Source: Desulfitibacter sp. BRH_c19 (GTDB lineage: Bacteria > Bacillota > DSM-16504 > Desulfitibacterales > Desulfitibacteraceae). From it: a stretch of 64,000 bases of DNA. Positions 2,950-61,775 of this stretch are shown here, piece after piece. Position numbers and translations under genes: made by a program. The notes beneath the pieces were generated by a model. That model saw nothing but the letters and a program-made list of their open reading frames with translations. It did no database searches and had not been told where the DNA came from. The stretch lies in NCBI GenBank assembly GCA_001515945.1, contig LOER01000016.1:1-64000 (forward strand), given 5' to 3'. The first letter of the stretch is position 1; every line of letters starts with the position of its first letter.

Positions 2950-2991
2950 TTATCAATTTTATTATAAATTTTATATCAGGGAGGTATAAAT

Positions 2992-5016: not shown

Positions 5017-5040
5017 TCATGTGGAAAGGAGGAATATATA

Positions 5041-7239: not shown

Positions 7240-7248
7240 TATCAATTT

Positions 7249-7273
7249 TGGGTGCCGTTTTTTGCGGCACCCA
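7249..7273 (+). other. Intercistronic hairpin between acsB and acsC
   Basis: A perfect 9-bp stem TGGGTGCCG/CGGCACCCA encloses loop TTTTTTG. No T tract follows on either strand, so it is not a classical terminator. It probably stabilises or processes the mRNA end and could set different amounts of AcsAB and AcsCD. Confidence 0.6.
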
Positions 7274-7317
7274 ATAAAAATAAAAATGTCTTATTCAATT
7301 AAGAAAGGGGATCAGTT

Positions 7318-8655
7318 ATGGGCTTAACAGGTTTGGAAATTTACAAACAACTGCCAAAAAAGAACTGCGGAGAATGTGGACCTCCAACTTGCTTAGCATT
7401 TGCGATGAATCTTGCAAGTGGGAAAGCAGCATTGGATTCATGTCCATATGTTACTGATGCAGCAAAGGAAGCTTTAGAATCAGCGGCAGCTCCTCCAATT
7501 GCTTTAGTTAAAGCTGGTACTGGGGATTATGTTGTTGAAATGGGTGACGAAACAGAATTATTCCGTCACGATAAAAAGTTTTATCATGAAGCTGCATATG
7601 CTATTAAAGTTAGTGATAGTTTATCAGAGGAAGAAATTAGCGAGAAAGTTAAAAAAGTAAACAACCTAGTTATTGAAAGAGTTGGGATGCAGTATAAATC
7701 CCAGTTTGTTGCTATCGACAATCAATCAGGTAGTGCTGATGCTTTTGTAAAAGCTGTAGAGATTGCAAATAGTATCACAGATATGCCTCTAGTACTAATA
7801 TCTACTGATGTTCCTGCTGTTGCAAAAGCATTGGAAATAGTAGCTGACAAAAAGCCTCTTGTTTATGCAGCTACAGAAGACAACTATGAAGAAATGACTA
7901 AGCTAGCTAAAGACAAAGATGTTCCTCTAGCTGTATATGCAGAAGGCTTAGATGCTTTAGCCGAGCTAGTTCAGAAGGTTGTTAACTTAGGACATAAGCA
8001 ACTTGTTCTAGATCCTGGAAGCAAAGATTTATCACAAACCATTGCAAATTTAGTACAGATTCGCCGTCAGGCTATTAAGAAGAAATTCAGACCATTTGGA
8101 TATCCCATAATGGCGTTCACTCAAGCAACTGACCCATTAGAAGAAGTTGTTGAGGCCGTGGCTCTAACAGGGAGATATGCAAGTATAGTTGTGATGGATA
8201 CAACTGACCCAGCTCACATGGCACCACTAATGTCCTGGAGACAAAACCTATATACAGATCCACAAGTTCCAATCCAAGTTGAAGAAAAAATATATGCTGT
8301 TGGAGATGTAAATGAGAATTCACCTGTTTATGTTACAACTAACTTCTCATTATCATTCTATACTGTTCAAGGTGAAGTTGAATCTAGTAAGATTCCTTCA
8401 TATATCATACCAATCAATACAGATGGAACATCAGTATTAACTGCATATTCAGCTGGTAAATATGAGCCAGAGCAAATAGCTGCAGTTCTTAAAAAGGTTG
8501 GTATTGAAGATAAAGTAAGCCATAGGAACGTTGTAATTCCTGGCCTAGTTGCTGTTGTAAGTGGTAAGCTCGAAGATTCATCGGGTTGGAAAGTAATTGT
8601 TGGTCCGAGGGAAGCTTCTGGTATACCATCATTTGCAAAAAGTCAATTTGCGTAG
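7318..8655 (+). CDS. acsC: Corrinoid iron-sulfur protein large subunit
   Basis: This 445-residue gamma subunit of the corrinoid/iron-sulfur protein shuttles the methyl group from methyl-THF to acetyl-CoA synthase. The N-terminal [4Fe-4S] motif is C17-x2-C20-x4-C25-x16-C42, and the rest forms the TIM-barrel and B12-binding C-terminal domain of the family. It pairs with AcsD (11382-12353) to make the heterodimer. AAAGGGG at 7303-7309 precedes the start. Only 10 bp separate it from acsV, which reactivates its cobalt. Confidence 0.96.
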   Translation: MGLTGLEIYKQLPKKNCGECGPPTCLAFAMNLASGKAALDSCPYVTDAAKEALESAAAPPIALVKAGTGDYVVEMGDETELFRHDKKFYHEAAYAIKVSDSLSEEEISEKVKKVNNLVIERVGMQYKSQFVAIDNQSGSADAFVKAVEIANSITDMPLVLISTDVPAVAKALEIVADKKPLVYAATEDNYEEMTKLAKDKDVPLAVYAEGLDALAELVQKVVNLGHKQLVLDPGSKDLSQTIANLVQIRRQAIKKKFRPFGYPIMAFTQATDPLEEVVEAVALTGRYASIVVMDTTDPAHMAPLMSWRQNLYTDPQVPIQVEEKIYAVGDVNENSPVYVTTNFSLSFYTVQGEVESSKIPSYIIPINTDGTSVLTAYSAGKYEPEQIAAVLKKVGIEDKVSHRNVVIPGLVAVVSGKLEDSSGWKVIVGPREASGIPSFAKSQFA

Positions 8656-8665
8656 GAGTGATTAA

Positions 8666-10570
8666 ATGAAATACTCGGTGACCTTTCTTCCAGATCAAAT
8701 CACAATTGAATTAGAAGCAGGCAAAACTTTAATCCAAGCTGCAAATTATGCAGGTATAGGAATAAAGAGTTCATGTGGTAGTGAAGGCACCTGTGGGCGT
8801 TGTAAGATAAGAGTAATTGAAGGAAATTATCAATACGACAATAAATTCAACTGTACATTACCAAAAAAGCATAGAGATGCAGGATATGTTTTAGCTTGCA
8901 AAACCTTTGTAGAGGATAATATCATTGTTCAAATTCCAACAGAGTCAAGACTTGAAGCTCATCAAGTCTTGATGGACGATAAAGTAGGAATTTTAGCTGA
9001 AACAAACATTTCCCTGTTAAATGGATATAATTTAAATCCATTAAGTAAAAAAATTAAGCTTTCGATGGATGCTCCAAATTTAACCGAGATTATTAGTGAC
9101 TTATCCCGATTAGAGACTGAATTAGCTAAGCAATTTGGAATAAAGAACCCAAAGATTAGTTTGCCAGTTCTATCACAAATGGCAGAGAACTTAAGAAAGG
9201 GTAACTGGCAGGTTACATTAACATTAGCCTTGAACGGTAAAGACTACGAAATAATCAGAATAGATCCTGGTCATGACGACAAGTCTTGCTATGGGCTAGC
9301 AATTGATATTGGCACTACTACTGTTGTAGTCAGTTTGGTTGATCTGGAGAATGGAAGATCTATTGATAAAATGGGAACATATAATCGTCAAGCTAAGCTA
9401 GGTGATGACGTTGTTTCTAGAATGATACACAGCTCATCTGAAGAAAATGGGTTACAGGAACTTCAATCTCTGGTAATTAAAACAATAAATGAATTAACAT
9501 CTAAGTTGTTAGAAAAACATCATCTAACTTCTGATGAAATATGTATTATGGTTACTTCTGGCAACACAACTATGACCCATCTCTTACTTGGTTTACATCC
9601 AAAGTATATTAGACTTGAACCTTATGTTCCTACTGCTACCTTCGCTCCAATAGTGAAGGGTAAGGATCTGGGGTTACAGATGAATCCAGAAGGTCTAGTA
9701 TATAGCTTTCCCGCTGTAGCAAGCTATGTAGGTGGAGATATCGTGTCTGGAGCTCTGGTAACTAAAATATCAAACAAAGAGGAACTTACTCTTTTCATTG
9801 ATATTGGTACTAATGGAGAAATTGTCTTAGGCAACCAGGATTGGCTTATAAGCTGTGCTTGTTCTGCCGGACCTGCTTTTGAAGGTGGTGGCATAACTCA
9901 TGGCACAAGAGCTATGAAGGGTGCCATTGAAAGGGTCGAGATAGACAACGAAACATTTGAAGTTAAGGTAAATACAATAGAATCTGGTAAAGCAATTGGC
10001 ATATGTGGTTCAGGCTTGATAGACTGTATTGCTAAAATGCATCAGGTTGGTATAATTGACAGGACAGGTACTTTTCAAGATACAGAATCCCAAAGAGTAC
10101 AGATTACACATGATGATAAGCTTTTTGTACTTGTATGGAAAGGGGAATCTGGTATTGGGAAAGATGTGTATATATCTGAAAATGATATCAAAAACATTAT
10201 CAGGTCCAAAGGAGCTGTTTTTGCTGGTATTCAAAGTCTATTAAAAACACTTCAGTTGGAAATTGAGTTGATTGATAAGATTTTGATTGCTGGTGGTTTT
10301 GGTAATTATCTTAACATTCCTGATGCTGTTAGACTTGGATTGCTACCGGATTTACCCCTTGAAAAATATGAATTTGTAGGGAATACATCTTTAAAAGGTG
10401 CCGAGTTGGCATTGATATCCCAAGAGTCCTGGAAGCAGGCTGAAAATATTGGGAAAATGATGACATACTTAGAGCTTTCAGTAGGTAATTTATTTATGGA
10501 TGAGTTTATGCAAGCTCTATTTTTACCTCATACTGACTTAAGATTATTTCCTTCAGTTGAATTACGTTAA
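8666..10570 (+). CDS. acsV: Reductive activator of the corrinoid protein (RACo, AcsV)
   Basis: This 634-residue protein has an N-terminal plant-type [2Fe-2S] ferredoxin domain (C37, C43, C46 and C78), a linker, and a C-terminal ASKHA-fold ATPase domain beginning near residue 210 (motif AIDIGTTTVV, later DIGTNGE and AGGFGNYL). Family role: it couples ATP hydrolysis to reduction of accidentally oxidised Co(II) in the corrinoid protein back to Co(I). It sits between acsC and cooC2. An SD-like AGGAG lies 8 bp before the ATG. Confidence 0.95.
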   Translation: MKYSVTFLPDQITIELEAGKTLIQAANYAGIGIKSSCGSEGTCGRCKIRVIEGNYQYDNKFNCTLPKKHRDAGYVLACKTFVEDNIIVQIPTESRLEAHQVLMDDKVGILAETNISLLNGYNLNPLSKKIKLSMDAPNLTEIISDLSRLETELAKQFGIKNPKISLPVLSQMAENLRKGNWQVTLTLALNGKDYEIIRIDPGHDDKSCYGLAIDIGTTTVVVSLVDLENGRSIDKMGTYNRQAKLGDDVVSRMIHSSSEENGLQELQSLVIKTINELTSKLLEKHHLTSDEICIMVTSGNTTMTHLLLGLHPKYIRLEPYVPTATFAPIVKGKDLGLQMNPEGLVYSFPAVASYVGGDIVSGALVTKISNKEELTLFIDIGTNGEIVLGNQDWLISCACSAGPAFEGGGITHGTRAMKGAIERVEIDNETFEVKVNTIESGKAIGICGSGLIDCIAKMHQVGIIDRTGTFQDTESQRVQITHDDKLFVLVWKGESGIGKDVYISENDIKNIIRSKGAVFAGIQSLLKTLQLEIELIDKILIAGGFGNYLNIPDAVRLGLLPDLPLEKYEFVGNTSLKGAELALISQESWKQAENIGKMMTYLELSVGNLFMDEFMQALFLPHTDLRLFPSVELR

Positions 10571-10597
10571 TAAAGATAATAAGGTAGGTGACCAGTA

Positions 10598-11359
10598 GTG
10601 ACTGTAACAATCGCTGTAGCAGGAAAGGGTGGAACCGGAAAAACGACATTTGCCGCATTGGTTATAAAAAGCCTTTTGCAAGGAAAAAATCCTAGTATTT
10701 TAGCCCTGGATGCAGATCCTAATTCAAACTTAAATGAGGCTTTAGGCTTGGAGGTGGAAAAAGCGATTTCTGAGATTTTAGAGGCTACCAAGGACCCAAA
10801 GGCAGTACCTGAGGGTATGTCTAAGCACATGTTTATTGAATATATGCTATCACAAGCTATCATTGAAACAAAAAACATTGATCTGCTAGTTATGGGAGGC
10901 CCACAAGGTCCTGGTTGTTATTGTTATCCTAATGATATTCTAAAGGGCAACATGGACAAACTTGCTCCAAACTACGATTATGTGGTTGTAGATAATGAAG
11001 CAGGATTGGAGCATATAAGTAGGGGTACTGTAAAAAAGGTTAACCATTTATTTGTTATTAGTGATGGTTCAGTTAGGGGAATTAGGTCAGCAGCAAGAGT
11101 TAGAGAGTTGATAGAAGCACTCAAAAACGAAATAGATAATGTCTATCTTGTTATAACCAAAATCTCTAATGAAGAGCAATTAGATACCATAATGCCAGAA
11201 ATCCAAAAGACGGGATTGAATTTTATTGGTTACATCCCAATGGATGAACAAGTTGTGGAATATGATCTGCATGCTCGAGCTTTGTTCGACTTGCCTGATG
11301 ATAGTAAAGCAGTTGAGTCCGTTAAAGACATTCTCAATAAAACAGTTTTAAATAATTAA
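10598..11359 (+). CDS. Second CooC/AcsF-type nickel-insertion ATPase
   Basis: This 253-residue MinD-like ATPase has Walker [10 protein letters not shown] at residues 9-17, a [10 protein letters not shown] switch and a GCYCY motif with C107 and C109. It is homologous to the first-gene CooC but clearly diverged, and is placed between acsV and acsD. In acetogens such a homologue (AcsF) is thought to help load nickel into acetyl-CoA synthase; that role is family-based inference. The start is GTG at 10598 behind AAGGTAGGTG. It could equally be a redundant CODH maturase. Confidence 0.9.
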
Positions 11360-11381
11360 CCTTTGGAAAGGAGAGAAGTTT

Positions 11382-12353
11382 ATGGCAGTAGCAATTTTAA
11401 AAGATAGAAACACTTCTAAGGTTATCGAAGTGACACTCGGAGCTACCAAAGAACAGGGTGGTACACGTTCCCATACAATTACTGTTGGTGGAGATTCTGC
11501 ATTACCTTTCCATCACTTTGAAGGTGAGTTTCCAAACAAACCAGTAGTAGCTATGGAAGTTCAAGACATGGTTCCTAAATGGAGTGCTAGTCTAACAAAA
11601 GAATTAAGTGATGTATGGGGTGACCCTGCTGCGTGGGCACAAAAGTGTGTAGAGGAATATGGAGCTGACTTGATATATCTTAAGTTAGATGGAGCTCATC
11701 CTGATGAGGCTGACCATTCTCCAGAAAAATGTGCTGAAATTGTTAAAAAGGTTCTAGCAGCTGTTAGTGTACCATTAATCGTTGCAGGTTGTGGGGTTGA
11801 AGAAAAAGACAATGAAGTATTACCAGCTGTAGCGGAGGCTGCTGCAGGTGAGAACCTTCTACTTGGTTTTGCTGAACAAGAGAATTATAAAACTTTAACA
11901 GCTGCATGTATGGTTCACAAACATACTATTATCGCTCGCTCACCTCTAGATATAAATATTTGCAAGCAGTTAAACATCTTAATCTCTGAAATGAACCTAC
12001 CTACTTCTAGGATTATTATTGACCCAACGATAGGTGCTTTGGGATATGGGATAGAGTATGCATACTCTATCCTCGAGAGAGCTAGATTAGGTGCTTTGCA
12101 AGGAGATAAAATGCTTGGAATGCCTATTATTGCAACTGCAGGTTTCGAATCATGGAAGACAAAAGAAGCTATCGCTCCTACTGAAGATTACCCTGAGTGG
12201 GGAGATGTAGAAGATAGAGGTGTCTTATGGGAAACTGTAACCGCAACTTCTTTATTACAATCAGGTGTTCACATTTTATTACTCAGACACCCTAAATCAG
12301 TTCAGTTAGTCAAGAAGAGTATAGATCAGTTAATGAAGGTAAATAAGTTATAA
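11382..12353 (+). CDS. acsD: Corrinoid iron-sulfur protein small subunit
   Basis: This 323-residue TIM-barrel beta subunit of the corrinoid/iron-sulfur protein partners AcsC and helps place the corrinoid between methyltransferase and synthase. Family hallmarks are the N-terminal [19 protein letters not shown] segment, the [12 protein letters not shown] strand and the [20 protein letters not shown] stretch. The start follows GGAAAGGAGAG with normal spacing, 22 bp after cooC2. A strong hairpin follows at 12365-12399 before acsE. Confidence 0.95.
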
Positions 12354-12364
12354 GTAATCTTAGG

Positions 12365-12399
12365 TTTTTGCTGCAGTATCTAAGGTGCTGCAGCAAAAA
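12365..12399 (+). other. Intercistronic hairpin between acsD and acsE
   Basis: A perfect 12-bp stem TTTTTGCTGCAG/CTGCAGCAAAAA encloses an 11-nt loop. The only T run is in the 5' arm and no T tract follows, so termination on this strand is doubtful. It resembles the acsB-acsC hairpin in placement and likely affects message stability or partial readthrough. Confidence 0.55.
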
Positions 12400-12411
12400 T
12401 TAATATTATAG

Positions 12412-13227
<816 letters not shown>

Positions 13228-13247
13228 TAAGCCTAATATAAGCAATT

Positions 13248-13281
13248 AATAGGCTAGACCATTAGGCCTAGCCTATTTTTT
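13248..13281 (+). terminator. Rho-independent terminator of the acs operon
   Basis: A 10-bp stem AATAGGCTAG/CTAGCCTATT with a 10-nt loop is followed by TTTT, 20 bp after acsE. Confidence 0.9.
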
Positions 13282-13587
13282 ACTTTTGAAAACTTTTTAG
13301 ATATAATACCTCTAGAATATGCACTCGTTTTTAATCTGACATTAGAACACTTTACTTCTTCAGAGTGCTGCTAATTTTTTTGTATTAATAAATAATTTTT
13401 ATTTTATTAATAAACAATCTATAAAAGACTACAAGAACATACCAGAAATTATATGAATTCCTCCTGAAAAGATGGTTGTCTATAACCTGTATTTCAGTTA
13501 ATATATACTAAGTACTATTTTGAATTATTATAAATTTTCTAATAATAGTTATATTTACTAACTTTAAAACCTGTGGGGGTGTAAAAT
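13282..13587 (+). promoter_or_regulatory. Leader region of the methylene-THF reductase gene
   Basis: There is no gene in these 306 bp. A TATAAT at 13302-13307 has only a weak TTTACT 17 bp upstream. About 35 bp further, an imperfect hairpin (TTAG..CACT with AGTG..CTAA, 13343-13374) is followed by seven Ts, so a short terminated transcript or attenuator is possible. The last 80 bp are featureless AT-rich DNA up to the SD GTGGGGG at 13573-13579. The interpretation is tentative. Confidence 0.35.
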
Positions 13588-15138
13588 ATGGAGAATCGCT
13601 TTAAAGAATCATTATTAGACAAAAATACCGTGTCAATAACTTGGGAAGTAGTTCCAGGTAGAGGGGCAAGAGAAAAAGCACAAGAAGTAGCCATGGAGGC
13701 TGCTGAAATAGCGGCCAAAAGTGGTAAAATTCATGCAATTACAATTACTGATATGCCTGGTGGTAATCCTGCAATTTTAGCAGATACTCTCGGAATGGAA
13801 ATGCTAGAGTTAGGTATTGAACCACTAGTACACTTTACTTGTAAGGATAAGAACCGGAATCAAATGGAAAGTCAATTATACTCTTTAGATAGAGCAGGAG
13901 TTCGTAACCTTTTGGTAATGACAGGGGATTATCCTGTTTCCGGTTTTAAGGGAAGACCTAAGCCTGTGTTTGATTTAGATCCTATTCATACAGTCAAGCT
14001 AATTTCAGATATGAATAAAGGACTTGAGGTTCAGGGATTTAAAGGAATGCTTCAGCATGCTAAAAGTGACTTTTTTAGTGGAGTAGCTGTATCACCATTT
14101 AAAGCTACTGAAGCTGAACAAATGGCACAATATTTTAAGTTAAAAAAGAAGATAGCTGCAGGCGGTAATTTTGTTGTTACGAATCTTGGTTATGATGCTA
14201 GAAAGTTTCATGAAGTAATTCAGTTTATGAAACTTAACAACCTGAATGTACCAATTATTGGTAACTTATATGTTTTACCTTATGGAGCAGCAAGGATTAT
14301 GAATCAAAACCAGCTTCCAGGATGTGTAGTTACTGATAAACTATTAGCGCAACTTGATGAAGAAAGAAAAGCTCCAGACAAAGGTGTTGGAGCTAGATTA
14401 TTACGTGCAGCAAAAATGTATGCCTTTATGAAGGGTATGGGCTTTGATGGCATTCATCTAGGAGGCCATAACCTCAAGTTTGAACACGTAGAATATATCA
14501 TGGAAAAAGGGGAAGAGTTGAGTGCTAATTGGCAAGACTATATTTCTGAATTTGATTTCCCAATGCCTGATGGTTTCTACTATTACGAAAAAGACCCTAA
14601 TACTGGATTAAATACTGAAAATCCTACTAGCACTAAGGACCGTCCTCTTGATGCACCAGTTGGAGGCGTCTATAGGCTTTCTAGAGTTGTTCACAGCCTA
14701 ATGTTTGAACCTAATAAAAAATTCTTTGGTATGATGCGTGGAGTTTCAAAGTCTGTAGAAGGTTCCTCAATGGAGAAACTTTATCACGGCCTTGAACATC
14801 TAGCAAAAGTTATAATGTATGACTGCAAAGATTGTGGAGATTGTGCTTTGTCAGATTTGGCATACGTTTGCCCAATGTCTCAGTGTCCAAAGAATCAGCG
14901 CAACGGAGCCTGTGGTGGTAGTTTTAACGGTTGGTGTGAAGTCCATCCTAATAAGAAAAAATGTATTTATGTAAAAGCTTATTCTAGATTAAAGAACTAT
15001 GGAGAGCATTCTCAACTAGATGATTACCATGTAGATCCTTGTAATTGGGACTTACACCAAACATCATCTTGGATAAACTTCTATCTAGGAAAAGATCACT
15101 CCTCAGATCGCTTAGGAATTAAAAAACCTGAAAAGTAA
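13588..15138 (+). CDS. metF: Methylenetetrahydrofolate reductase with fused MetV-like C-terminal domain
   Basis: This 516-residue protein has two parts. Residues 1 to about 330 are a MetF-type flavin TIM barrel (ITWEVVPGRG start, HFTCKDKNRNQ, LLVMTGDYP and IIGNLYVLPYGAA segments). Residues from about 370 form a cysteine-rich MTHFR-C domain (DCKDCGDC, VCPMSQCPKNQRNGACGG, WCEVHPNKKKC), the part encoded separately as metV in several acetogens. It reduces methylene-THF to methyl-THF, the donor for AcsE just upstream. Alone in its transcription unit, it ends with an inverted-repeat terminator. The electron donor cannot be told from sequence; no hdr or etf subunits are adjacent. Confidence 0.93.
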   Translation: MENRFKESLLDKNTVSITWEVVPGRGAREKAQEVAMEAAEIAAKSGKIHAITITDMPGGNPAILADTLGMEMLELGIEPLVHFTCKDKNRNQMESQLYSLDRAGVRNLLVMTGDYPVSGFKGRPKPVFDLDPIHTVKLISDMNKGLEVQGFKGMLQHAKSDFFSGVAVSPFKATEAEQMAQYFKLKKKIAAGGNFVVTNLGYDARKFHEVIQFMKLNNLNVPIIGNLYVLPYGAARIMNQNQLPGCVVTDKLLAQLDEERKAPDKGVGARLLRAAKMYAFMKGMGFDGIHLGGHNLKFEHVEYIMEKGEELSANWQDYISEFDFPMPDGFYYYEKDPNTGLNTENPTSTKDRPLDAPVGGVYRLSRVVHSLMFEPNKKFFGMMRGVSKSVEGSSMEKLYHGLEHLAKVIMYDCKDCGDCALSDLAYVCPMSQCPKNQRNGACGGSFNGWCEVHPNKKKCIYVKAYSRLKNYGEHSQLDDYHVDPCNWDLHQTSSWINFYLGKDHSSDRLGIKKPEK

Positions 15139-15182
15139 TATATAAGAAAACACCGGGTAACCCGGTGTTTTCTTATATATAT
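15139..15182 (+). terminator. Terminator, probably bidirectional, after metF
   Basis: A perfect 17-bp inverted repeat ATAAGAAAACACCGGG/CCCGGTGTTTTCTTAT with loop TAA has a GC core and a U-rich 3' arm. It starts at the metF stop codon. Confidence 0.85.
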
Positions 15183-15237
15183 GGTATATTCTTGTCCCTT
15201 TTAGAATATCTGTTTATAAGGATATTTTTAAAAAAGG

Positions 15238-16008
15238 GTGATGAAATTGAATGTGAGAAGAAACAAAGAGCTCGAATTAAAAATAGTTAATTTGACAGAT
15301 CTATTAATACAAAGTGTAATAGAAGCTAGTCTCAAGGACCCTGAAGAAAAGCCATTAGTTTTAGAAGAAGCAGAAGATTTGATTCTTCAGTTGTCTGAAT
15401 TAATACATGATTTAATTGAAGATGAACAACACTTAGAGTCCATGCTTAGTCAATTAGTTTTTCAAAAATTACCTGGCGACCATATTCTAGAAGGCTTTAA
15501 AGATTTTAATGAAGTGCTATCTGCTCTAATTGAAAAAGGTGTCCATAACTATCGAAGTGGCCTAGATGATGATAACTCAGTTGATGAAGCTGAAATCCCC
15601 ACTAAAGCAAATAAAGATGATATAAACAAGGAAAAAGATATCTATATTAGTAAGATTGATAATGGAATAGAATCGTTATTGAAAGAGGCAACTAGTGGAA
15701 TAATAGACTTAAAATCTAATGCTGACATTAGGACAGAGGATGATGATTTAGCTAAAGATAGGTTTATCTTAGATATTAAAAAAATATATCCAGATCTTGT
15801 AGTCTATAAGAATATAAACTATAAGGGAACAAAATTTCAATACTATATTCCAGAGAGAAAGATAGCAATTGAAATGCATACAAATCCACAGATTTATCAA
15901 GGTTTTAAAGGTATTAAAGAGTTTATTTCTGAAAAACAAGGCATTAAAATAATAAAAATACCCACAAAATACACTATTTCTTCCTTGAAAAGCTTAATAA
16001 AATTCTAA
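15238..16008 (+). CDS. Uncharacterised protein with nuclease-fold-like C-terminus
   Basis: I do not recognise this 256-residue protein. The N-terminal half is acidic and helical (residues about 10-100), followed by a charged low-complexity linker with DDDN and EKD runs. The last 70 residues read as alternating strands and helices ending KFQYYIPERKIAIEMH then KIIKIP. That is the spacing of a PD-(D/E)xK or DUF559-like nuclease core in which the usual D before YIP is absent, so catalysis is unlikely if the resemblance is real. The start ATG at 15238 follows AAAAAAGGGTG; an alternative is GTG 15253. It is monocistronic, in front of the T-box leader. Confidence 0.7.
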   Translation: MMKLNVRRNKELELKIVNLTDLLIQSVIEASLKDPEEKPLVLEEAEDLILQLSELIHDLIEDEQHLESMLSQLVFQKLPGDHILEGFKDFNEVLSALIEKGVHNYRSGLDDDNSVDEAEIPTKANKDDINKEKDIYISKIDNGIESLLKEATSGIIDLKSNADIRTEDDDLAKDRFILDIKKIYPDLVVYKNINYKGTKFQYYIPERKIAIEMHTNPQIYQGFKGIKEFISEKQGIKIIKIPTKYTISSLKSLIKF

Positions 16009-26582: not shown

Positions 26583-27692
26583 ATGAAACTTCAAGAGTAT
26601 CAAGGCAAGAATATCTTTAGAAACTATGGTATTGAAGTACCCAGGGGTAAAGTTGCCAGAAGTCAAGCCGAAGCATTTGAAATAGCTAAAGAGCTTAAAG
26701 AAACTGTTTTAAAGGTACAGATTTTATCTGGCAAAAGAGGGAAAGCCGGTGGAATCCAATTCGCATCAAGCCCAGATGAAACACTAATTAAAGCAAAAGA
26801 TTTGCTTTCTACGAATTTTCTGGGCTTTAACGTTGAGCATTTACTAATTGAAGAAAAAATATCTATTGAAAAAGAATATTATGTTGCGGTAACTTATGAC
26901 TACAAAATGAAATGTCCGGTTATGTTAGTCTCTGCTCAGGGAGGTATGGATATAGAGGATGTTCCTGAAGCATTAATCATTAAAACTTATATTAAACCAA
27001 ATACAAGATTAGAGCAATATCAAGGAAGAGAAATAGCTGTTAATACTGGTATTAAAGGTAAACAAATTAATATATTTTCATCATTACTTGTTAAATTAAT
27101 GGACATTTTTTTAGATTGTGATGCAGAACTTGTTGAAGTTAACCCATTAGTTCTTTCAAAGGAAAGATTTATTGCTGCCGATTCAAAGGTTGTTATTGAT
27201 GATGATGCACTCTTTAGGCAAACTGATTTGCCTCATAATGATGAAAAAACTGAAGTGGAACGAAAATGTCATGCAATTGGACTTTCCTATGTAGAACTAG
27301 ATGGTGATATTGCTATTATGGCTAATGGCGCAGGAATAACCATGGCAACATTAGATTTGATAAATCATTATGGAGGAAGCCCTAATAATTTCTTAGATGC
27401 TGGCGGTGGGGCAAATGAGGAACAGACAAGAAAAGCCTTAGAATTATTGATTTCCACTAATCCAAAGGGAATTTTCATAAACATCTTTGGAGGCATCACT
27501 AGGACAGACGATGTTGCTAGAGCTTTTCTTAAGGTCAAAGATCAGCTCGAAATTAACGTTCCAGTGGTAATCAGGCTAGTTGGTACTAACCAAAAAATTG
27601 CTCTGGATTTACTTCAATCTGCTGGAATCGAAGCTTTTTCTGATATGGAGCAGGCTGCCAAAACAATTGTACAAAAGGTGAGGGGGTACTAA
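26583..27692 (+). CDS. sucC: Succinyl-CoA ligase beta subunit (ATP-grasp)
   Basis: This 369-residue ATP-grasp subunit begins MKLQEYQGKNIFRNYGI. It has the nucleotide-binding KVQILSGKRGKAGG segment, the AELVEVNPLV metal motif and the CoA/phosphate loop FLDAGGGANEEQTRKAL with GIFINIFGGITR. It binds ATP or ADP and succinate. It pairs with SucD directly downstream (1-bp gap). In the methylmalonyl route it interconverts succinate and succinyl-CoA with substrate-level phosphorylation. It is the first gene of a nine-gene operon that runs to 33775. Confidence 0.93.
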   Translation: MKLQEYQGKNIFRNYGIEVPRGKVARSQAEAFEIAKELKETVLKVQILSGKRGKAGGIQFASSPDETLIKAKDLLSTNFLGFNVEHLLIEEKISIEKEYYVAVTYDYKMKCPVMLVSAQGGMDIEDVPEALIIKTYIKPNTRLEQYQGREIAVNTGIKGKQINIFSSLLVKLMDIFLDCDAELVEVNPLVLSKERFIAADSKVVIDDDALFRQTDLPHNDEKTEVERKCHAIGLSYVELDGDIAIMANGAGITMATLDLINHYGGSPNNFLDAGGGANEEQTRKALELLISTNPKGIFINIFGGITRTDDVARAFLKVKDQLEINVPVVIRLVGTNQKIALDLLQSAGIEAFSDMEQAAKTIVQKVRGY

Positions 27693-27693
27693 A

Positions 27694-28578
27694 ATGGCTA
27701 TTCTTTTAAACAAGGAGTCTAAAGTTCTTATACAAGGTATTACAGGTAATCAAGGCTCATTTCATTGTAAACAGATGTTAGATTATGGAACAAATATTAT
27801 TGCTGGTGTATCTCCTGGTAAAGGCGGTAACACAGTACATGATGTTCCCGTATATGATAGTGTATCTATGGTCAAAAATCATCTAGGTAAAATTGATGCC
27901 AGTATTTTATTTATCCCCGCTTCCTTTGCTAAAGATGCTGCACTTGAGGCTATAAACAATCATGTATCCATGATTGTGTTAATCACCGAACACATTCCAT
28001 TAAAAGATGCTACATACATAATGGATGCAGCAAAAGATAGGGGAACCATTGTTTTAGGGCCTAATACATACGGGATTATCAGCTCAGGTTTATCTAAAGT
28101 TGGAATTATGCCAAGTCAATATTTTCAGCCAGGACCAGTAGGCGTTGTTAGCAGAAGTGGTACATTAAGTTACGAAATCGTCGGAAATCTTTACAATAGT
28201 GGATTAGGCACTTCCACAGTTGTTGGCTTAGGTGGAGATAGAATAATAGGATTAAATTTTCCTGAAATTCTAGAAGAATTCCAGAAGGATTCTGAAACTA
28301 AGATCATTGTACTAATAGGGGAAATTGGTGGTAGTGCCGAAGAAGATGCCGCTGAATATATAAAGGGTAATGTTACTAAGCCTGTTGTAGCTTATCTAGC
28401 AGGTAAAAGTGCCCCTCCAGGTAAAAGGATGGGGCATGCTGGAGCAATTATAGAGAAAGGAATGGGTACTTTTGAAGCTAAGGTTAAAGCATTAGAGAAT
28501 GTAGGTGTTTTTGTTGCTTCTGAGCCTTCCCAAGTACCTATCTTAATAAGAAAGAATCTTCAACTAGGAGGACAGTAA
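27694..28578 (+). CDS. sucD: Succinyl-CoA ligase alpha subunit
   Basis: This 294-residue subunit has a Rossmann CoA-binding domain ([19 protein letters not shown]) and [12 protein letters not shown]. The phosphohistidine is in [10 protein letters not shown] near residue 247. It forms the heterodimer with SucC. It overlaps the next gene's start by one base (28578), giving translational coupling with the mutase. Confidence 0.94.
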
Positions 28579-30254
28579 TGATGAGAGAAGATAAAAAACA
28601 AGCCTTGTCAGAGAAGTTTAAAACCTGGACAGAAAAAACTGATAAGTTTGTTTTAAAAAGACCAGAAAGAAAAAGTAATTTTCTTACAGATTCTAACATT
28701 CCTGTTCAGAGGACTTACACACCTCTTGATTTGGAGGAATTTGACTATTTAGACCAATTGGGTATGCCTGGAGAATATCCATATACCCGAGGTGTTCAAC
28801 CAACAATGTATAGGGGGAGAAATTGGACCATGCGCCAGTATGCTGGCTTTGGAACTGCTGAAGAAACCAACAGTAGATTCAAATTCTTATTAGAGCAGGG
28901 GCAGACGGGGCTTAGTGTAGCTTTTGACTTGCCTACTCAAATAGGCTATGACTCTGATCATTACCTCGCAATGGGTGAAATAGGTAGAGTTGGTGTTGCA
29001 ATAGACTCTTTGGCTGATATGGAAATCCTATTTGATGGTATTCCCTTAGATAAAGTAAGTTGTTCCATGACAATTAATGCTCCTGCTGCTATTTTGCTTG
29101 CGATGTATGTAGCAGTCGCTGAAAAACAAGGAGTTTCGGCAGAAAAAATATCTGGTACAATTCAAAATGATATCTTAAAAGAATATGTTGCAAGGGGGAC
29201 ATATATTTTTCCTCCTAAAGAGTCTATGAAGTTGATTACAGATATCTTTGCCTACTGTTCAGAAAACGTTCCCAATTGGAATACAATCAGCATTAGCGGT
29301 TATCATATTCGGGAAGCGGGTTCAAATGCGGTTCAGGAAGTAGCATTTACCCTTGCCAATGGCATTGCTTATGTGGAAGCTGCTGTTAATACAGGTTTAA
29401 ATGTAGATGAATTTGCTCCACGTCTATCTTTCTTTTTTAATGCCCACACGAATTTTTTTGAAGAAGTCTGCAAATTCAGAGCGGCTAGACGGCTCTGGGC
29501 TAAAATTATGAAAGAAAGATTTGGTGCTAAGGATCCAAAATCTTTGATGTTAAGATTCCATACTCAAACCGGCGGGAGTACATTAACAGCTCAACAACCT
29601 GATGTAAATATAATGAGAGTTGCTTATCAAGCCCTAAGTGCTGTTCTTGGGGGGACTCAGTCCTTACATACCAACTCTAAGGATGAAGCTTTAGCCCTGC
29701 CAAATGAACACTCTGTGCGTATTGCCCTAAGAACTCAGCATGTAATTGCTGAGGAAATAGGTGTTACAGATACTGTAGATCCCCTTGCAGGATCTTATTA
29801 CATTGAAAAGCTTTCAAACGAGATTGAAGAGAAGGCTTATGAATATATTAAGCAAATTGATTTATTAGGTGGATCACCAAAAGCAATTGAAGAAGGATTT
29901 ATCCAGAAAGAAATACAAGAGAATGCTTATAATTATCAAAAACTTATTGAAAACAACAAGAAAGTGGTTATTGGAGTTAACAAATATGTCATTGAAGAAC
30001 AACCTCCAACAGATTTACAAAAGTTAGATCCAGAAGTTGCACAAAGACAGTTGCAAAAGCTACATAAGGTTAAAGAAAACAGGAATTCGGATAAAGTAGC
30101 CGCCTCACTAGATAGCTTGAAGATAGCTGCTCAGGGTTCAACTAATTTGATGCCTTTTATTGTAGATGCAGTAAAAAATTATGCTACTCTAGGAGAAATG
30201 TGTGGGATCCTTAGAGAGGTTTACGGTGAATATGAACAAAAGATCAATTTTTAG
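28578..30254 (+). CDS. mcmA1: Methylmalonyl-CoA mutase large (catalytic) subunit
   Basis: This 558-residue B12-dependent mutase TIM-barrel subunit has [73 protein letters not shown] and the substrate-histidine segment [16 protein letters not shown]. It isomerises succinyl-CoA and methylmalonyl-CoA. The cobalamin-binding domain is encoded separately by the next gene, as in archaea and many Clostridia. The ATG that overlaps sucD is preceded by CTAGGAGG. Confidence 0.96.
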
Positions 30255-30275
30255 TACAGGAGGTTACATTAGATT

Positions 30276-30668
30276 ATGGATAAACACATTCGAGTTCTAA
30301 TTGCTAAGGCTGGATTAGATGGCCATGACAGAGGAGCCAAAATAATTGCTCAAGCATTAAGAGACGCAGGGATGGAGGTAATATATACAGGCCTTAGACA
30401 AACCCCTGATCAAATAGTACAAACAGCTTTGCAGGAGGATGTTCAGGTAATCGGTATAAGCTGTCTTTCTGGGGCCCATATGTACTTAATGCCACCCATA
30501 GTTGAAAAACTTAGAGAAAATGAAGCTTCTGAAATCATTGTATTAGGGGGTGGGGTAATTCCAGCAGAGGATATTCCTGACCTAAAAAAGCTAGGAGTTA
30601 AAGAAGTATTTACACCAGGAACTCATACTTCAAAGGTTATAGAATTTATAAAAAATAACGTTCTATAA
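30276..30668 (+). CDS. mcmA2: Methylmalonyl-CoA mutase cobalamin-binding subunit
   Basis: This 130-residue flavodoxin-like B12 domain has the signature D15-x-H17-x-x-G20 (LDGHDRG), where H17 ligates cobalt, followed by GISCLSGAH and VLGGGVIP that line the nucleotide-loop pocket. It completes the mutase with the upstream catalytic subunit. TACAGGAGG precedes the start. No meaB/argK chaperone gene lies in the operon. Confidence 0.96.
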
Positions 30669-30767
30669 TAGCTGACTATCATGTTAGCTCAGATTACATC
30701 TTACTTACTAATTTATGCTAAGGAATATCAGATTATGTTGAAACTAGATAGTATGAGGAGTGATTAT

Positions 30768-31169
30768 ATGATCAGCAAAATTGATCATGTAGGAGTAGCT
30801 GTAAGTAATTTAAATGAAGCGAAGAAGCTTTATGAAGAAGTTTTTGGATTAGAAGTTTCTGGTACTGAAGTAGTTGAGGAGCAAAAGGTTAAGGTTGCCT
30901 TTATCCCGACTGGAAGTAGTAAGATTGAATTGCTTGAAAGCACAGATCCAGATGGACCAGTTGCAAAATTTATAGAAAAAAAAGGCCAAGGAATTCAACA
31001 CCTTGCACTAAGAGTAAACAATTTGGCAGAAGCTCTTGCAGAAGTTAAGGGTAAGGGAGTTCGTGTAATAGATGAAAAACCAAGATATGGAGCGGGAGGT
31101 GCAAAAATAGCTTTTTTACATCCTAAAGATACAAATGGTGTACTGATTGAGCTTTGTGAGAGGGAATAA
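30768..31169 (+). CDS. mce: Methylmalonyl-CoA epimerase
   Basis: This 133-residue VOC-fold protein starts [15 protein letters not shown] and has [16 protein letters not shown] and GIQHLALRV, with metal-binding H and E residues at the usual places. It interconverts (R)- and (S)-methylmalonyl-CoA. The ATG at 30768 follows ATGAGGAG at good spacing; an in-frame ATG at 30681 would add 29 residues not found in the family and lacks a ribosome site. Confidence 0.94.
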
Positions 31170-33804: not shown

Positions 33805-33850
33805 TCCCTGCATAGACATGTATTAAAGCTTGTCTACAGGGAGTTTTTTT
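33805..33850 (+). terminator. Terminator overlapping the next gene's ribosome site
   Basis: A stem TCCCTG/CAGGGA plus TAGACA/TGTCTA (33805-33818 with 33831-33842, 2-nt bulge) is followed by seven Ts (33844-33850). The ATG of the next gene starts at 33851, and its SD (AGGGAG) lies in the 3' arm. Confidence 0.8.
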
Positions 33851-34423
33851 ATGGATATCGTTATATCTATTGTAGTCGCTTTAGTAATAGGTATTTTGCC
33901 ATTAAAAAAGTTATTTGCATTTTACTTTTTTTCCTACGAAGATTTATACATGAAACACTATGATTTAAAGAAGTGCTATGATATATGGGGCCATATTTCT
34001 TATATTTTGCCCTTATTAGATTTCTTAAAAGGGCCTATGTTATACTATGTTTTAAAGATTCTTAATATCCAGGCTAGTCCACTTGTAGCAATTATTCTTA
34101 TTGTCCTATGGAAGGTCAACCCCCTGAAGGATTTCTTCCTTGGAAGAGGTATGAGTTTTTTTATGGGAATATCGTTAATTATCAATATTGAAATCTTTAG
34201 GCTTGTAATACTAATATATCTATCTTTATTAATTCTAAGTCGTTACCAAAGTATAGCTAGCTTTTTAACAGGTATTCTAGCAACTCCTGTGGTCTTTCTC
34301 AACACTAGTTTTACATTAATTGAGTTAACAGTAGTAATAATATGTTCAGGGCTTGTTCTTATATCATATAAAAGTTCGTTTTACCAGATATTTAATAAGA
34401 GATTTTTTCACCTTTCCCAGTAA
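33851..34423 (+). CDS. PlsY-like polytopic membrane protein
   Basis: This 190-residue, very hydrophobic protein has about six membrane segments. It loosely follows the PlsY acyl-phosphate:glycerol-3-phosphate acyltransferase pattern: LLDFLKGP resembles motif D-x-x-KG, and FFLGRGMSFFMG resembles the GKGVAT loop. The conserved GSGN-type loop is replaced, so activity is uncertain. The start at 33851 is chosen because AGGGAG is 7 bp upstream and the first helix begins at once. That site is buried in a terminator hairpin, so expression may depend on readthrough. Confidence 0.6.
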   Translation: MDIVISIVVALVIGILPLKKLFAFYFFSYEDLYMKHYDLKKCYDIWGHISYILPLLDFLKGPMLYYVLKILNIQASPLVAIILIVLWKVNPLKDFFLGRGMSFFMGISLIINIEIFRLVILIYLSLLILSRYQSIASFLTGILATPVVFLNTSFTLIELTVVIICSGLVLISYKSSFYQIFNKRFFHLSQ

Positions 34424-35224: not shown

Positions 35225-35399
35225 TTTAAAACCTCCCTAAAACATATTTTGTTAGATTGTATGCTTTAAATCAATAATTATGCTTTTTAAATCTTAAATT
35301 CACTAATTGATTGAGAGGTTTTTTATTATTTGATGTCGAATTCAATATGTAATTTATATTATATAAACTTATTAAAATATCTTTTGGAGGAGCTAGTCT

Positions 35400-36371
35400 A
35401 TGAAAATTGGATACCCAGCAACACTAACTTATTATTCTCATTTTCCATTATGGAAAAGCTTTTTTATGAGCCTTGGGCACGAGGTGATTACTTCTCCAAA
35501 AACATCAAAAAATATTTTGGAGAGTGGTGTTAAAGATACAGTTACAGATGCATGTATCCCTATTAAGATACTCCATGGACACGTTAGTTCCCTAAAAGAA
35601 AAGGTTGATGTTATCTTTATCCCAAGAATGGTAAGTATTGTTAAAAACGAAACCTTTTGTCCCAAGTTTTTAGGTCTACCAGAAATGGTAAAATACTCCA
35701 TAGATGATCTTCCAGAAATTATGTCTCCCCAAATTGAGTTAAAAAGGGGATTTTGGCAAATTTATAAAGTCTTAAAATCTGTAGGGTTACAGTTAGGGGC
35801 AACAAAAAATCAGGTTTTCAAGGCAATAATAGTAGCTATGAAAAATCATTTGAAATATCAAAAGTTATTACTTGCTGGTGTTTTTCCCAGAGAAGCAATA
35901 GATATTATAGATGGAATAAAAACCCCTAAGTTTAGTGAGCCAATCAAAAGTATTAATCTCGCTGTTTTAGGCTATCCATATCAAGTCTATGATTCATATA
36001 TTACTGTAAACCTGTTAGAAAACCTTGAAAAGATGGGTGTTAACATCTGGACTTGTGAAATGGTATCAGATAAAACACAAAAAAAATATAAAAATCTACT
36101 TCCAAAAAAGTTATTCTGGTATTACAGTAATTTGGTTATGAGGTGTACTTATTACTACTTAACGGAAAAGAAGGTTGATGGCATTATTCATATAACTGCT
36201 TTTGGTTGCGGTCCTGATGCAATGCTGGATAAATTAATGGAATTAGAATCTAAAAGCCACAAAGTCCCATTTATAAACATTACAATTGATGAACATACTG
36301 GAGAGGCCGGAATCCTTACAAGGTTAGAAGCTTTTATAGATATATTAAAAATACGGAGGGGTTATAGTTGA
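35400..36371 (+). CDS. DUF2229 / CoA-dehydratase-activase-related protein
   Basis: This 323-residue protein has the DUF2229 fold found in large acyl-CoA dehydratase activase proteins. It opens MKIGYPATLTYY, then has GHEVITSPKTS, the cysteine in TDACIPIKILHGH, a second in NETFCPKF and a third in HITAFGCGPDAM, followed by ITIDEHTGEAGILTRLEAF. These cysteines likely hold an iron-sulfur cluster, as in HgdB-type or double-cubane proteins. It is the first of three overlapping genes. The natural substrate is unknown. GGAGGAGC lies before the ATG. Confidence 0.85.
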   Translation: MKIGYPATLTYYSHFPLWKSFFMSLGHEVITSPKTSKNILESGVKDTVTDACIPIKILHGHVSSLKEKVDVIFIPRMVSIVKNETFCPKFLGLPEMVKYSIDDLPEIMSPQIELKRGFWQIYKVLKSVGLQLGATKNQVFKAIIVAMKNHLKYQKLLLAGVFPREAIDIIDGIKTPKFSEPIKSINLAVLGYPYQVYDSYITVNLLENLEKMGVNIWTCEMVSDKTQKKYKNLLPKKLFWYYSNLVMRCTYYYLTEKKVDGIIHITAFGCGPDAMLDKLMELESKSHKVPFINITIDEHTGEAGILTRLEAFIDILKIRRGYS

Positions 36372-37477
36372 AAGTTTCATTTCCACGCATGGGAACTTCA
36401 CATATAGCTTTTAAGCATTTCGTTGAAAGATTAGGTCACGAAGTTATCATTCCTCCTACTCCTAGCAAGCAAACTTTAAGCTATGGGGTTCAGTATTCAC
36501 CTGAATTTGCATGCATACCATTTAAGGTTCTTCTGGGTACATATGTAGAAGTTCTAGAAAAAGGAGCTGAAATGATTATTTCTTCTGGTGGCCATGGCCC
36601 TTGTCGAGCGGGACTTTATGGAATGCTACATGAGAAAATATTAAAAAATGCTGGTTATGATTTTGAAATGGTTACTCTAGATGCTCCTCTTAGAAATTTA
36701 AAGGATTTTATAAGTAAAATAAACCGCATTATCAAACCAAATAAAATTGGTTGGTATCAGTTTTACCAAGAATTTAAATTCGGCTGGGCTAAACTTAAAG
36801 TTTTAGATGAAGTTGACGCTTATTCACATAAAATCAGACCATACGAGGTAAAAATAGGACAAACTACAAAACAATTTCAAGCAGTACTAAAGTTGATAAC
36901 CGAAGCACAGACAATAAATGAAATAGATGAAGCAAAACACCAAAGTCTGAAACTATTGGATTCTGTAGAACAAGATAGAACAAAAACACCCCTCAAAGTA
37001 GGAATAATAGGAGAAATATACGTTGTAATAGAGCCCTTTATGAACTTTGATATCCAAGTTTTACTTGGGGAGATGGGAGTTGAAACACACCGTTCCATTT
37101 ACTTAACCCAGTGGACAAAAGACAATGTAGTAACTGATCAAGGAGAATTAGATGTAATAGCATGTGCACCTCCGTATCTAAATCAAAAGATTGGTGGCCA
37201 CGGTATAAATTCCATAGGAGAAACTGTACTATATTCAAAAAAAGGGTATGATGGAGTTATACAATTAGCTCCTTTTACTTGTATTCCAGAAATTGTTGCA
37301 AAAAGTATAATGCCTCAGGTTTCTAAGGATTTCAGAATTCCAGTCCTTTCTTTAACGATAGATGAGCAAACTGCAAGAGCAGGAGTTCAAACCAGGCTTG
37401 AAGCATTTATTGATTTAATGCTACATCAAAGGTCTGCCAAAGGAGGAAACCCACGTGAAGTGCTTATTGGGAATTGA
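36368..37477 (+). CDS. 2-hydroxyacyl-CoA dehydratase-like (HgdB-fold) protein
   Basis: This 369-residue paralogous-fold partner opens KVSFPRMGTSHIAFKH and has GHEVIIPPTPS, EFACIPFKVLLG, SSGGHGPCRAG, DVIACAPPY, GVIQLAPFTCIPEIV and LSLTIDEQTARAGVQTRLEAF. Cysteines in these motifs are placed like cluster ligands. The start is TTG at 36368, overlapping the previous stop (TTGA) behind GGAGGGG. It probably forms a complex with the upstream DUF2229 protein that accepts electrons from the activase encoded next. It is not a recognised dehydratase of a known substrate. Confidence 0.83.
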   Translation: MKVSFPRMGTSHIAFKHFVERLGHEVIIPPTPSKQTLSYGVQYSPEFACIPFKVLLGTYVEVLEKGAEMIISSGGHGPCRAGLYGMLHEKILKNAGYDFEMVTLDAPLRNLKDFISKINRIIKPNKIGWYQFYQEFKFGWAKLKVLDEVDAYSHKIRPYEVKIGQTTKQFQAVLKLITEAQTINEIDEAKHQSLKLLDSVEQDRTKTPLKVGIIGEIYVVIEPFMNFDIQVLLGEMGVETHRSIYLTQWTKDNVVTDQGELDVIACAPPYLNQKIGGHGINSIGETVLYSKKGYDGVIQLAPFTCIPEIVAKSIMPQVSKDFRIPVLSLTIDEQTARAGVQTRLEAFIDLMLHQRSAKGGNPREVLIGN

Positions 37478-38417
37478 TGTAGGATCTGTAAGTACAAATA
37501 TTGTAGTTTTAGATGAAGATCTTCAAGTTGCAGATTCTCTTTATTTACGAACTCAAGGCAACCCTATAAACGCCATTACCAAGGGCCTTAAGCTTATTGA
37601 AGAAAAGCTACCTAACAATGTTGAAATAATAGGTGTAGGAACTACGGGTAGTGGCAGGATTTTAGCAGGTGTTATTACTGGGGCCGATATAATAAAAAAC
37701 GAGATTACTGCCCATGCAGTAGCGGCATCTATGGAGGTTCCAGATGCACAAACAGTAATAGAAGTTGGTGGTCAGGATTCTAAGATCATTATTTTAAGAG
37801 ATGGAATAGTAGTAGACTTTGCAATGAATACGGTATGTGCCGCAGGTACTGGATCTTTCTTGGACCAACAAGCATCACGCCTAGGAATACCTATAGAGAA
37901 TTTTGGAGCGATGGCATTAAACGCTACTGTACCGGTTAGAATAGCTGGTAGATGTACGGTTTTTGCTGAATCCGATATGATACATAAGCAACAGATGGGC
38001 CATAAAAAGGAAGATATTATTAAAGGATTATGCGACGCCCTTGTAAGAAATTATTTAAACAATGTTGGAAAAGGAAAAGAGATATATCCGACCATTGTGT
38101 TTCAAGGAGGTGTAGCTGCTAATAAAGGGATTCATAAAGCCTTTGAAGATCAACTTAAAAAGGAAGTTATTATTCCTACTCATTTTGATGTTATGGGTGC
38201 CATTGGTGCAGGACTGCTTGCCTTTCACCATATTAAATCACACAATAGAGGTTCCAAGTTTAAAGGGTTCCAGGTTTCCGATTTAAAATATGAAACCTCT
38301 AGCTTTGAATGTACTGGATGCTCAAACCTCTGCGAAGTAATAAACATTACAAACAACAATGACGTTATTGCTAGGTGGGGTAGTAGATGCGGTAAATGGG
38401 AAACACTAGTAACTTAA
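37455..38417 (+). CDS. Acyl-CoA dehydratase activase (BadF/BcrA/HgdC ATPase)
   Basis: This 320-residue ASKHA-fold ATPase has the phosphate loop LLGIDVGSVSTNIVV, VGTTGSGR, VIEVGGQDSKII, and the [4Fe-4S]-binding cysteines in NTVCAAGTGSFLDQQ and AGRCTVFAESD. The C-terminus adds an unusual ECTGCSNLCEV plus SRCGKWE cysteine tail. Such proteins use ATP to push a single low-potential electron into a partner. The start is GTG 37455 behind AAAGGAGG, overlapping the upstream gene by 23 bp. The tail cysteines may bind an extra cluster. Confidence 0.9.
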   Translation: MKCLLGIDVGSVSTNIVVLDEDLQVADSLYLRTQGNPINAITKGLKLIEEKLPNNVEIIGVGTTGSGRILAGVITGADIIKNEITAHAVAASMEVPDAQTVIEVGGQDSKIIILRDGIVVDFAMNTVCAAGTGSFLDQQASRLGIPIENFGAMALNATVPVRIAGRCTVFAESDMIHKQQMGHKKEDIIKGLCDALVRNYLNNVGKGKEIYPTIVFQGGVAANKGIHKAFEDQLKKEVIIPTHFDVMGAIGAGLLAFHHIKSHNRGSKFKGFQVSDLKYETSSFECTGCSNLCEVINITNNNDVIARWGSRCGKWETLVT

Positions 38418-38490: not shown

Positions 38491-38922
38491 GTGAAACAGT
38501 CTTTAGAAGTAATTTGTAAAAAACTACAAGGAAAGGACTATAAACTCACTCCGCAACGGAAAATTATTCTAAAAGTATTTTTGGAAAATGAACAGGATCA
38601 TCTTAGTGCTGAAGACATTTATCAAATGGTAAAACATCATTATCCAGAAATCGGTCTCGCCACAGTATACAGAACCCTCGATTTACTAGCAGATATGGAA
38701 GTGCTACAGAAAATGAATTTTGATGATGGCAAGGCTCGTTATGAATTCTCTAGTCACAATGAGCACCATCATCACCACTTAATCTGCTTAAGATGTAGCA
38801 AAGTAATTGAATTTAATGATGATTTACTTGATGTGTTGGAAAGAGCAATTTCCGAGAAAAAGAACTTTGACGTAATCAATCATGAATTAAAGTTTTTTGG
38901 TTATTGTTCAGAATGCAAATAG
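38491..38922 (+). CDS. Fur-family metalloregulator, paralogue 1
   Basis: This 143-residue protein has a winged helix (residues 15-80, with LTPQRKIILKVF and ATVYRTLDLL) and a dimerisation domain with the histidine cluster EHHHHHLIC, a C-x2-C zinc pair (CLRC) and a second pair near the end (CSEC). That is the typical Fur/PerR/Zur layout. The regulated metal or peroxide signal cannot be told. A closely similar paralogue is at 61335-61775. GTG start behind AAAGGAG. It is separated from folE by a terminator. Confidence 0.93.
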   Translation: MKQSLEVICKKLQGKDYKLTPQRKIILKVFLENEQDHLSAEDIYQMVKHHYPEIGLATVYRTLDLLADMEVLQKMNFDDGKARYEFSSHNEHHHHHLICLRCSKVIEFNDDLLDVLERAISEKKNFDVINHELKFFGYCSECK

Positions 38923-61334: not shown

Positions 61335-61775
61335 GTGAAAAAATCTTTAGAAGTAATTTATCAAAAACTACAAGAAAAAGACTATAAACTTACCCCACAA
61401 CGGAAAACCATTTTAAAGGTATTTTTGGATAATGAACAAAAGCATCTTAGTGCTGAAGACATTTATCAAATTGTTAAAAATCAGTATCCAGAAATAGGCC
61501 TTGCTACAGTTTACAGAACCCTAGATTTACTAGCAGATATTGAAGTATTACAAAAAATGAATTTTGATGATGGTAAGTCTCGCTATGAGTTATCAAGTCA
61601 TGATAAGCATCATCATCACCACTTAATCTGCTTAAAATGTAGCAAAATAATAGAATTTAATGATGATTTGCTTGATGTGTTGGAAAAGGCAATCTATGAA
61701 AAAAAGAGCTTTACTGTCATCAATCATGAATTAAAGTTTTTTGGTTATTGTTCAGAATGTCATTCCGAAAAATAA
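61335..61775 (+). CDS. Fur-family metalloregulator, paralogue 2
   Basis: This 146-residue protein is closely similar to paralogue 1 at 38491: the same LTPQRK..ILKVF helix, ATVYRTLDLLAD, the HHHHHLICLKC cluster and the CSEC tail. It adds a three-residue C-terminal extension. The SD region TATAAAGGAGTAA and the GTG start are also shared, which points to fairly recent duplication or strong selection. It is probably co-transcribed with the DUF134 gene. The metal specificity is not readable. Confidence 0.93.
   Translation: MKKSLEVIYQKLQEKDYKLTPQRKTILKVFLDNEQKHLSAEDIYQIVKNQYPEIGLATVYRTLDLLADIEVLQKMNFDDGKSRYELSSHDKHHHHHLICLKCSKIIEFNDDLLDVLEKAIYEKKSFTVINHELKFFGYCSECHSEK

Follow-up and report, generated by a model that had tools for sequence, protein, structure and literature searches.

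Which enzyme is encoded by three overlapping genes of Desulfitibacter sp. BRH_c19, and what might it reduce? The genes lie in a stretch of 64,000 nucleotides that was analyzed as a whole (here, the window). A first-pass annotation had read them as two DUF2229/HgdB-fold proteins and an activase that overlap tightly and lack a recognized substrate enzyme. Our analysis confirms the operon at 35400-38417 (Table 1), and its boundaries and tight overlaps are as first described, with 4 nt shared by A1 and A2 and 23 nt shared by A2 and A3. The A1-A2-A3 order, with genes that overlap or almost abut, was found again in about 50 loci. The three proteins may correspond to COG3580, COG3581, and COG1924.

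Table 1. Features of the A1-A2-A3 locus, in window positions
Feature	Position	Strand	Properties	Assignment
Upstream element AGGTTTTTTATTATTTGATGTCGAAT	35316-35341	+	Starts 84 nt before A1	Contains Spo0A-box-like TGTCGAA
A1	35400-36371	+	ATG start, 323 aa	DUF2229 with HGD-D tail; predicted HgdB-fold subunit
A2	36368-37477	+	TTG start, 369 aa	Predicted second HgdB-fold subunit
A3	37455-38417	+	GTG start, 320 aa	ASKHA fold; predicted ATP-dependent activase of the BadF/HgdC family
A3 CxxCxxxC-X18-C motif (Cys4)	38310-38390	+	C286, C289, C293, C312	Absent from solved activases
Fur-family regulator	38491-38922	+	73 nt downstream of A3	

In Pfam, A1 matches PF09989 (DUF2229) with 168 bits, while its HGD-D match is confined to the C-terminal 63 residues and stays below the cut-off (25.9 versus 28.4 bits). 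The only domain of A2 that exceeds a Pfam cut-off is the DUF2229 N terminus (43 bits); A2 matches are present in 37 of 41 sampled genomes, part of them as fused proteins. A3 is recognized by BcrAD_BadFG (Pfam, 160 bits) and TIGR00241 (NCBIfam, 190 bits), and it gave full-length alignments to the HadI (E value, 3e-35) and HgdC (3e-34) activators. Its first ~260 residues align with the solved activases MbdQ (of 3-methylbenzoyl-CoA reductase), HadI, HgdC, and DCCP-R, whose chains have 243 to 276 residues; about 55 further C-terminal residues of A3 are without counterpart there. AlphaFold2 gave a model with a pLDDT of 82 for A1 and one of low confidence for A2 (pLDDT of 63, from nine sequences), which is too poor for detail. 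Compared with 350,542 PDB chains, the A1 and A2 models gave convincing E values only with DCCP, 2-hydroxyisocaproyl-CoA dehydratase, and benzoyl-CoA reductase (BCR) subunits. Judged from their sequences, A1 and A2 both have the HgdB fold and together make a catalytic dimer like that of the dehydratases. Because they themselves make up such an HgdB-type pair, the catalytic enzyme that had been thought absent is present, and none is missing.

The cysteines of A1 and A2 that had been noted as conserved are not a chance feature: C52, C87, and C270 of A1 are invariant in 59/59 homologues, and C49, C79, and C305 of A2 are invariant in 61/61. Both triplets are predicted to be [4Fe-4S] ligands. In BzdO, a characterized relative, three cysteines (C95, C128, and C380) bind the catalytic [4Fe-4S] cluster, whose fourth iron carries water or hydroxide (PMC11971306), and HAD has three cysteine ligands in each of its two subunits (PMC11574389). 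The activase has the two bridging cysteines per monomer of the HgdC type (C128 and C167, invariant in 54/54 homologues), which by analogy would hold a dimer-bridging [4Fe-4S] cluster. The C-terminal Cys4 motif is kept in 52 of the 54 A3 homologues. Since both exceptions are activases of other systems (L032 and an unlinked copy in L093), Cys4 is present in 52/52 of the split-set activases examined, a split set being an A1-A2-A3 set of separate genes.

The number of cysteines also bears on a comparison with double-cubane proteins that the first-pass annotation had suggested. A DCCP/DCCP-R-type system (6ENO, 7YYL) that reduces small molecules (e.g., acetylene or azide) would share with the operon an HgdB fold and an ATPase partner, and DCCP holds the first Foldseek rank for A1. 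However, in a double cubane, as exemplified by BzdN, the cysteine thiolates of a single subunit ligate six irons (PMC11971306). The double-cubane reading fails on this point because A1 and A2 have only three invariant cysteines each, where six are needed for [8Fe-9S]. DCCP is, moreover, built of two identical subunits, each providing six cluster ligands, whereas the operon encodes two different subunits, and the double_cubane model of NCBIfam matched neither A1 nor A2. We therefore consider such a system very improbable.

A 2-hydroxyacyl-CoA dehydratase or class I BCR acting on a CoA thioester is also improbable, if not to the same degree. Superfamily folds and the activase family are shared with these enzymes, and two subunits with three cysteines each recall HadBC. 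However, A3 scores far under the NCBIfam equivalog cut-offs for BCR subunit A (118 versus 578 bits), BzdQ (85 versus 380 bits), and BCR subunit D (71 versus 313 bits), and no NCBIfam model matched A1 or A2. HGD-D matches over the cut-off in both subunits, as in a dehydratase, were not found (A1 falls short, and a value for A2 was unreported). Genes for a CoA-transferase, a CoA-ligase, or aromatic or amino acid degradation are not consistently linked, and A1 and A2 are nearer to DUF2229 proteins and to the fused PlsA homologue described below. Orthology to a characterized dehydratase or BCR system, which had been named as the result that would speak against an unusual enzyme, was thus not found, with scores below the curated cut-offs of Pfam and NCBIfam.

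The closest parallel is in the same genome, which also encodes a fused protein of 1,444 residues (contig C17; L029 3627-7961) in which two activase modules are combined with DUF2229 and another reductase part, the layout of PlsA/Ger (plasmalogen synthase/glycerol ester reductase). When profiles of A1, A2, and A3 were mapped onto it, (i) the A3 profile matched residues 20 to 273 (140 bits) and again 333 to 649, including Cys4 (202 bits), so that A3 is equivalent to the second activase domain, (ii) the A1 profile matched the first reductase domain at 684 to 1000 (125 bits), and (iii) the A2 profile matched the C-terminal reductase domain at 1044 to 1257 (52 bits) and, in the region of the third cysteine, at 1339 to 1383. 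A1 C52, C87, and C270 correspond to C735, C777, and C948 of the fused homologue; A2 C49, C79, and C305 correspond to C1073, C1108, and C1367; and Cys4 corresponds to positions 619, 622, 626, and 645, between activase 2 and reductase 1. The extra activase cysteines that had been singled out as peculiar do exist, but they typify the split family and recur in the fused plasmalogen-synthase homologue. Bridging layouts exist as well, namely, A1-A2 fusions of 720 to 739 residues (e.g., L110) and fused forms of 979 to 1,015 residues. Given the collinear profiles and the matching cluster cysteines, the window set most likely works like a split PlsA/Ger, and the operon probably encodes a split enzyme of the PlsA/Ger branch of the BCR/HAD superfamily, an ATP-driven Fe-S reductase that is complete in itself.

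The distribution of the split form was surveyed in 120 genomes of the phylum, all of them nearly complete, with SpoIVA as the spore marker (105 positive and 15 negative). Split sets were defined by an A2 match with an E value of ≤1e-50 and the window type by an A2 score from about 370 bits upward. Such parts had been described as usually fused or next to a dehydratase; within the phylum, the split form is commoner than the fused one, being present in 90 of the 120 genomes as against 31. Split sets occur in 86/105 SpoIVA-positive versus 4/15 SpoIVA-negative genomes (Fisher P = 3e-5) and, counted per family, in 50/61 versus 3/9 (P = 0.005). The window type was found in 43 genomes with SpoIVA and in 1 without it. 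Fused PlsA is enriched where SpoIVA is lacking (10/15, versus 21/105 with it; P = 4e-4). In the 120 genomes, it is also anticorrelated with split sets (P = 0.004). Split sets follow sporulation, a correlation over related genomes that is not proof. The acetyl-CoA pathway was tried as the main correlate and rejected: AcsB is present in 22 of 44 window-type genomes (P = 0.005), a mild correlation weaker than that with sporulation, which persists within AcsB-negative genomes (P = 6e-4). When named genomes were scanned by pattern, no more than nine close loci turned up, most of them in Moorella.

The source genome contains a second complete A1-A2-A3 set on contig C32 (L030:8716-13927), in the order spoIIAA-spoIIAB-sigF-spoVA-A1-A2-A3-lysA (SpoVAE and a GerA-family gene were identified by Pfam, and the remaining genes were named by reading the sequences). 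A dodecin gene (PF07311) also lies within this sigF-spoVA locus, in which the second set directly follows the spoVA genes. This arrangement is widespread. In an IQ-TREE tree of A1 plus A2, a branch divides the window-type sets from the rest (bootstrap, 96; SH-aLRT, 79; recovered in 98% of the bootstrap trees). The spoVA-linked sets group together with two nonlinked exceptions, and the spoVA-linked label has to change three times along the tree instead of once. Two main lineages of paralogues are evident: the window type and a spoVA-linked sister. In all 24 spoVA-type sister loci with a readable upstream neighbor, this neighbor is on the same strand and mostly within 100 nt, and in all but three of the 24 it belongs to the spoVA cluster. 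This spoVA-linked second copy is the strongest functional clue. Among the papers searched on the forespore and this enzyme class, none describes the link.

Further relatives were seen in the source genome and elsewhere. Contig C38 (L031:3691-5692) has a pair of A1 and A2 genes, convergent with plsY, that lacks an activase of its own, and plsY adjoins related pairs also in L104, L106, and L107. Because the proper PlsY sits on C38, the PlsY-like membrane protein at 33830-34423 of the window (a weak match of 28.6 bits) looks like a diverged paralogue. On contig C23 (L032:6102-7853), a two-gene pair for an HGD-D protein and an activase lies next to murI-like and rph/rdgB-like genes; this pair is not a standard DCCP, because it reaches 52 bits against a cut-off of 350 bits for the double-cubane model. 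An extra, diverged A2 copy follows shortly downstream of the first in L067 (G030 C4), with matches in G045, G117, and G048.

Around the window set itself, no consistent sporulation gene was found in the immediate neighborhood of window-type sets. A pattern AGGTNTTT...AYGTCGAAW precedes A1 in the window, in the host's own genus, and in Moorella; each genome has only one or two copies of it. The Spo0A box consensus, which we take to be TGNCGAA, fits the TGTCGAA of the element; this heptamer is exact in the own genus and reads CGTCGAA, off consensus, in Moorella. The enrichment is not general, as exact TGNCGAA precedes 5 of 24 window-type loci and the extended element is limited, among these loci, to the own genus and the Moorella relatives. 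Spo0A control of the window set may be regarded as a weak lead. Upstream of A1, classical sigma-G/E/K promoter patterns gave no consistent matches, and sigma-70 matches were not above those in shuffled sequences. On the other side, no terminator-like site was called between A3 and the Fur gene, a layout from which cotranscription with the operon is possible. Fur is a conserved neighbor in 10 window-type loci, though not in the remaining ones; often fur, surE, folE, and a spoVB-like gene lie close to window-type sets, but not to distant members. The window has a second Fur paralogue at 61335-61775, 22 kb from that at 38491-38922 and 85% identical to it. In Moorella and relatives, the window-type set and fur are separated by the gene for a conserved protein of ~320 to 350 residues that has no Pfam match (L020:12045-13010 and L065:6306-7355); this protein is absent from the window.

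Elsewhere in the window are an apparent Wood-Ljungdahl cluster (2188-16008, with CdhC/AcsB confirmed at 5041-7239), which includes a gene whose product reads like a RACo-type ATP-dependent reductive activator (8666-10570), and, further on, apparent methylmalonyl-CoA genes (26583-31169). The Wood-Ljungdahl genes and the frequent Fur neighbor could fit another role, in which A1-A2-A3 is a reductive activator or maturase that feeds low-potential electrons to a metalloprotein or cofactor, as RACo does for corrinoid proteins. Metabolic genes are not consistently linked to the window type, and the acetyl-CoA pathway, with which it mildly co-occurs, needs reductive activation. However, AcsB is absent from half of the window-type genomes, the nearest relatives act on small molecules or lipids, and A1 and A2 show the three-cysteine pattern of catalytic HAD/BCR subunits (PMC11971306 and PMC11574389), so that an activator is unlikely.

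For a split PlsA/Ger-type reductase, homology gives good support to the general mechanism. An A3 dimer would bind ATP and bear the bridging cluster, and Cys4 would bind a further metal, perhaps as a cluster through which electrons enter or are relayed. Upon ATP hydrolysis, A3 would fire single low-potential electrons into an A1-A2 heterodimer, in which one cluster may store or relay the electron and the other, a three-cysteine cluster with an open site, would pass it to the substrate. The uncharacterized ATP-driven low-potential reduction that had been proposed for the set fits all the evidence. Reduction of a lipid acyl ester by PlsA/PlsR gives a vinyl ether, and reduction by Ger gives an alkyl ether (PMC9702350 and PMC13274423). 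It is quite conceivable, if short of probable, that the substrate here is an ester or carbonyl compound and not a CoA thioester, the likeliest candidate being an acyl ester of a membrane (phospho)lipid, as for PlsA/Ger.

The biological role is a matter of greater doubt. Tentatively, split sets could be a sporulation-associated class, with the spoVA-linked paralogue acting in the forespore and the window paralogue doing a related job, possibly under Spo0A. One paralogue would be dedicated to the developing spore, where it might remodel the spore inner membrane (e.g., with vinyl- or alkyl-ether lipids) or reduce another spore-specific compound, and the other would carry out a related reaction in the same organisms. 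Moorella stamsii, M. sulfitireducens, and M. thermoacetica have two split sets each and no fused PlsA. Because Table 1 of PMC13274423 lists iso-diabolic acid and N-glyceroyl alkylamines for M. thermoacetica and no vinyl or alkyl ethers, abundant ether-lipid formation by split sets in ordinary cultures is unsupported; a spore-specific product may stay compatible with that table.

The operon points to a very widespread, uncharacterized enzyme family of anaerobic spore formers, and its interest lies mainly in this wide conservation and in the spore link. The spoVA locus offers a directly testable genetic connection of endospore formation to Fe-S chemistry at extremely low potential. For annotation, counting DUF2229 matches as plasmalogen synthase or Ger leads to misannotation of genomes, such as those of Moorella, that have only split sets.

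Compared with known systems, the operon resembles HadBC/HadI (HgdAB/HgdC) in having two HgdB-fold subunits with three cysteines each and a separate ATPase activase. It differs from them in the DUF2229 N-terminal part of A1, in an HGD-D match that stays under the cut-off, in the C-terminal Cys4 of the activase, and in that CoA-pathway genes are not linked. With PlsA/PlsR and Ger it shares an activase followed by Cys4, a DUF2229 reductase module with three cluster cysteines (A1), and a second HgdB-type reductase module with the same (A2), although A2 has only a remote likeness (52 bits) to its counterpart. PlsA/PlsR and Ger join these modules in one or two polypeptides, whereas the operon has three separate genes in the order A1-A2-A3 and one activase module, compared with two in the fused PlsA homologue of the source genome. 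According to a 2026 paper (PMC13274423), which calls their role unclear, all screened Bacillota genomes hold additional PlsA homologues that lack the activation domain; many of these homologues are probably the A1 (DUF2229) subunits of split sets, which would account for them in the lipid literature. In section 18 of that paper, a neighboring activase and the spoVA link go unmentioned. In split sets, the activase is encoded by a neighboring gene. Split sets and fused PlsA also have opposite distributions relative to sporulation.
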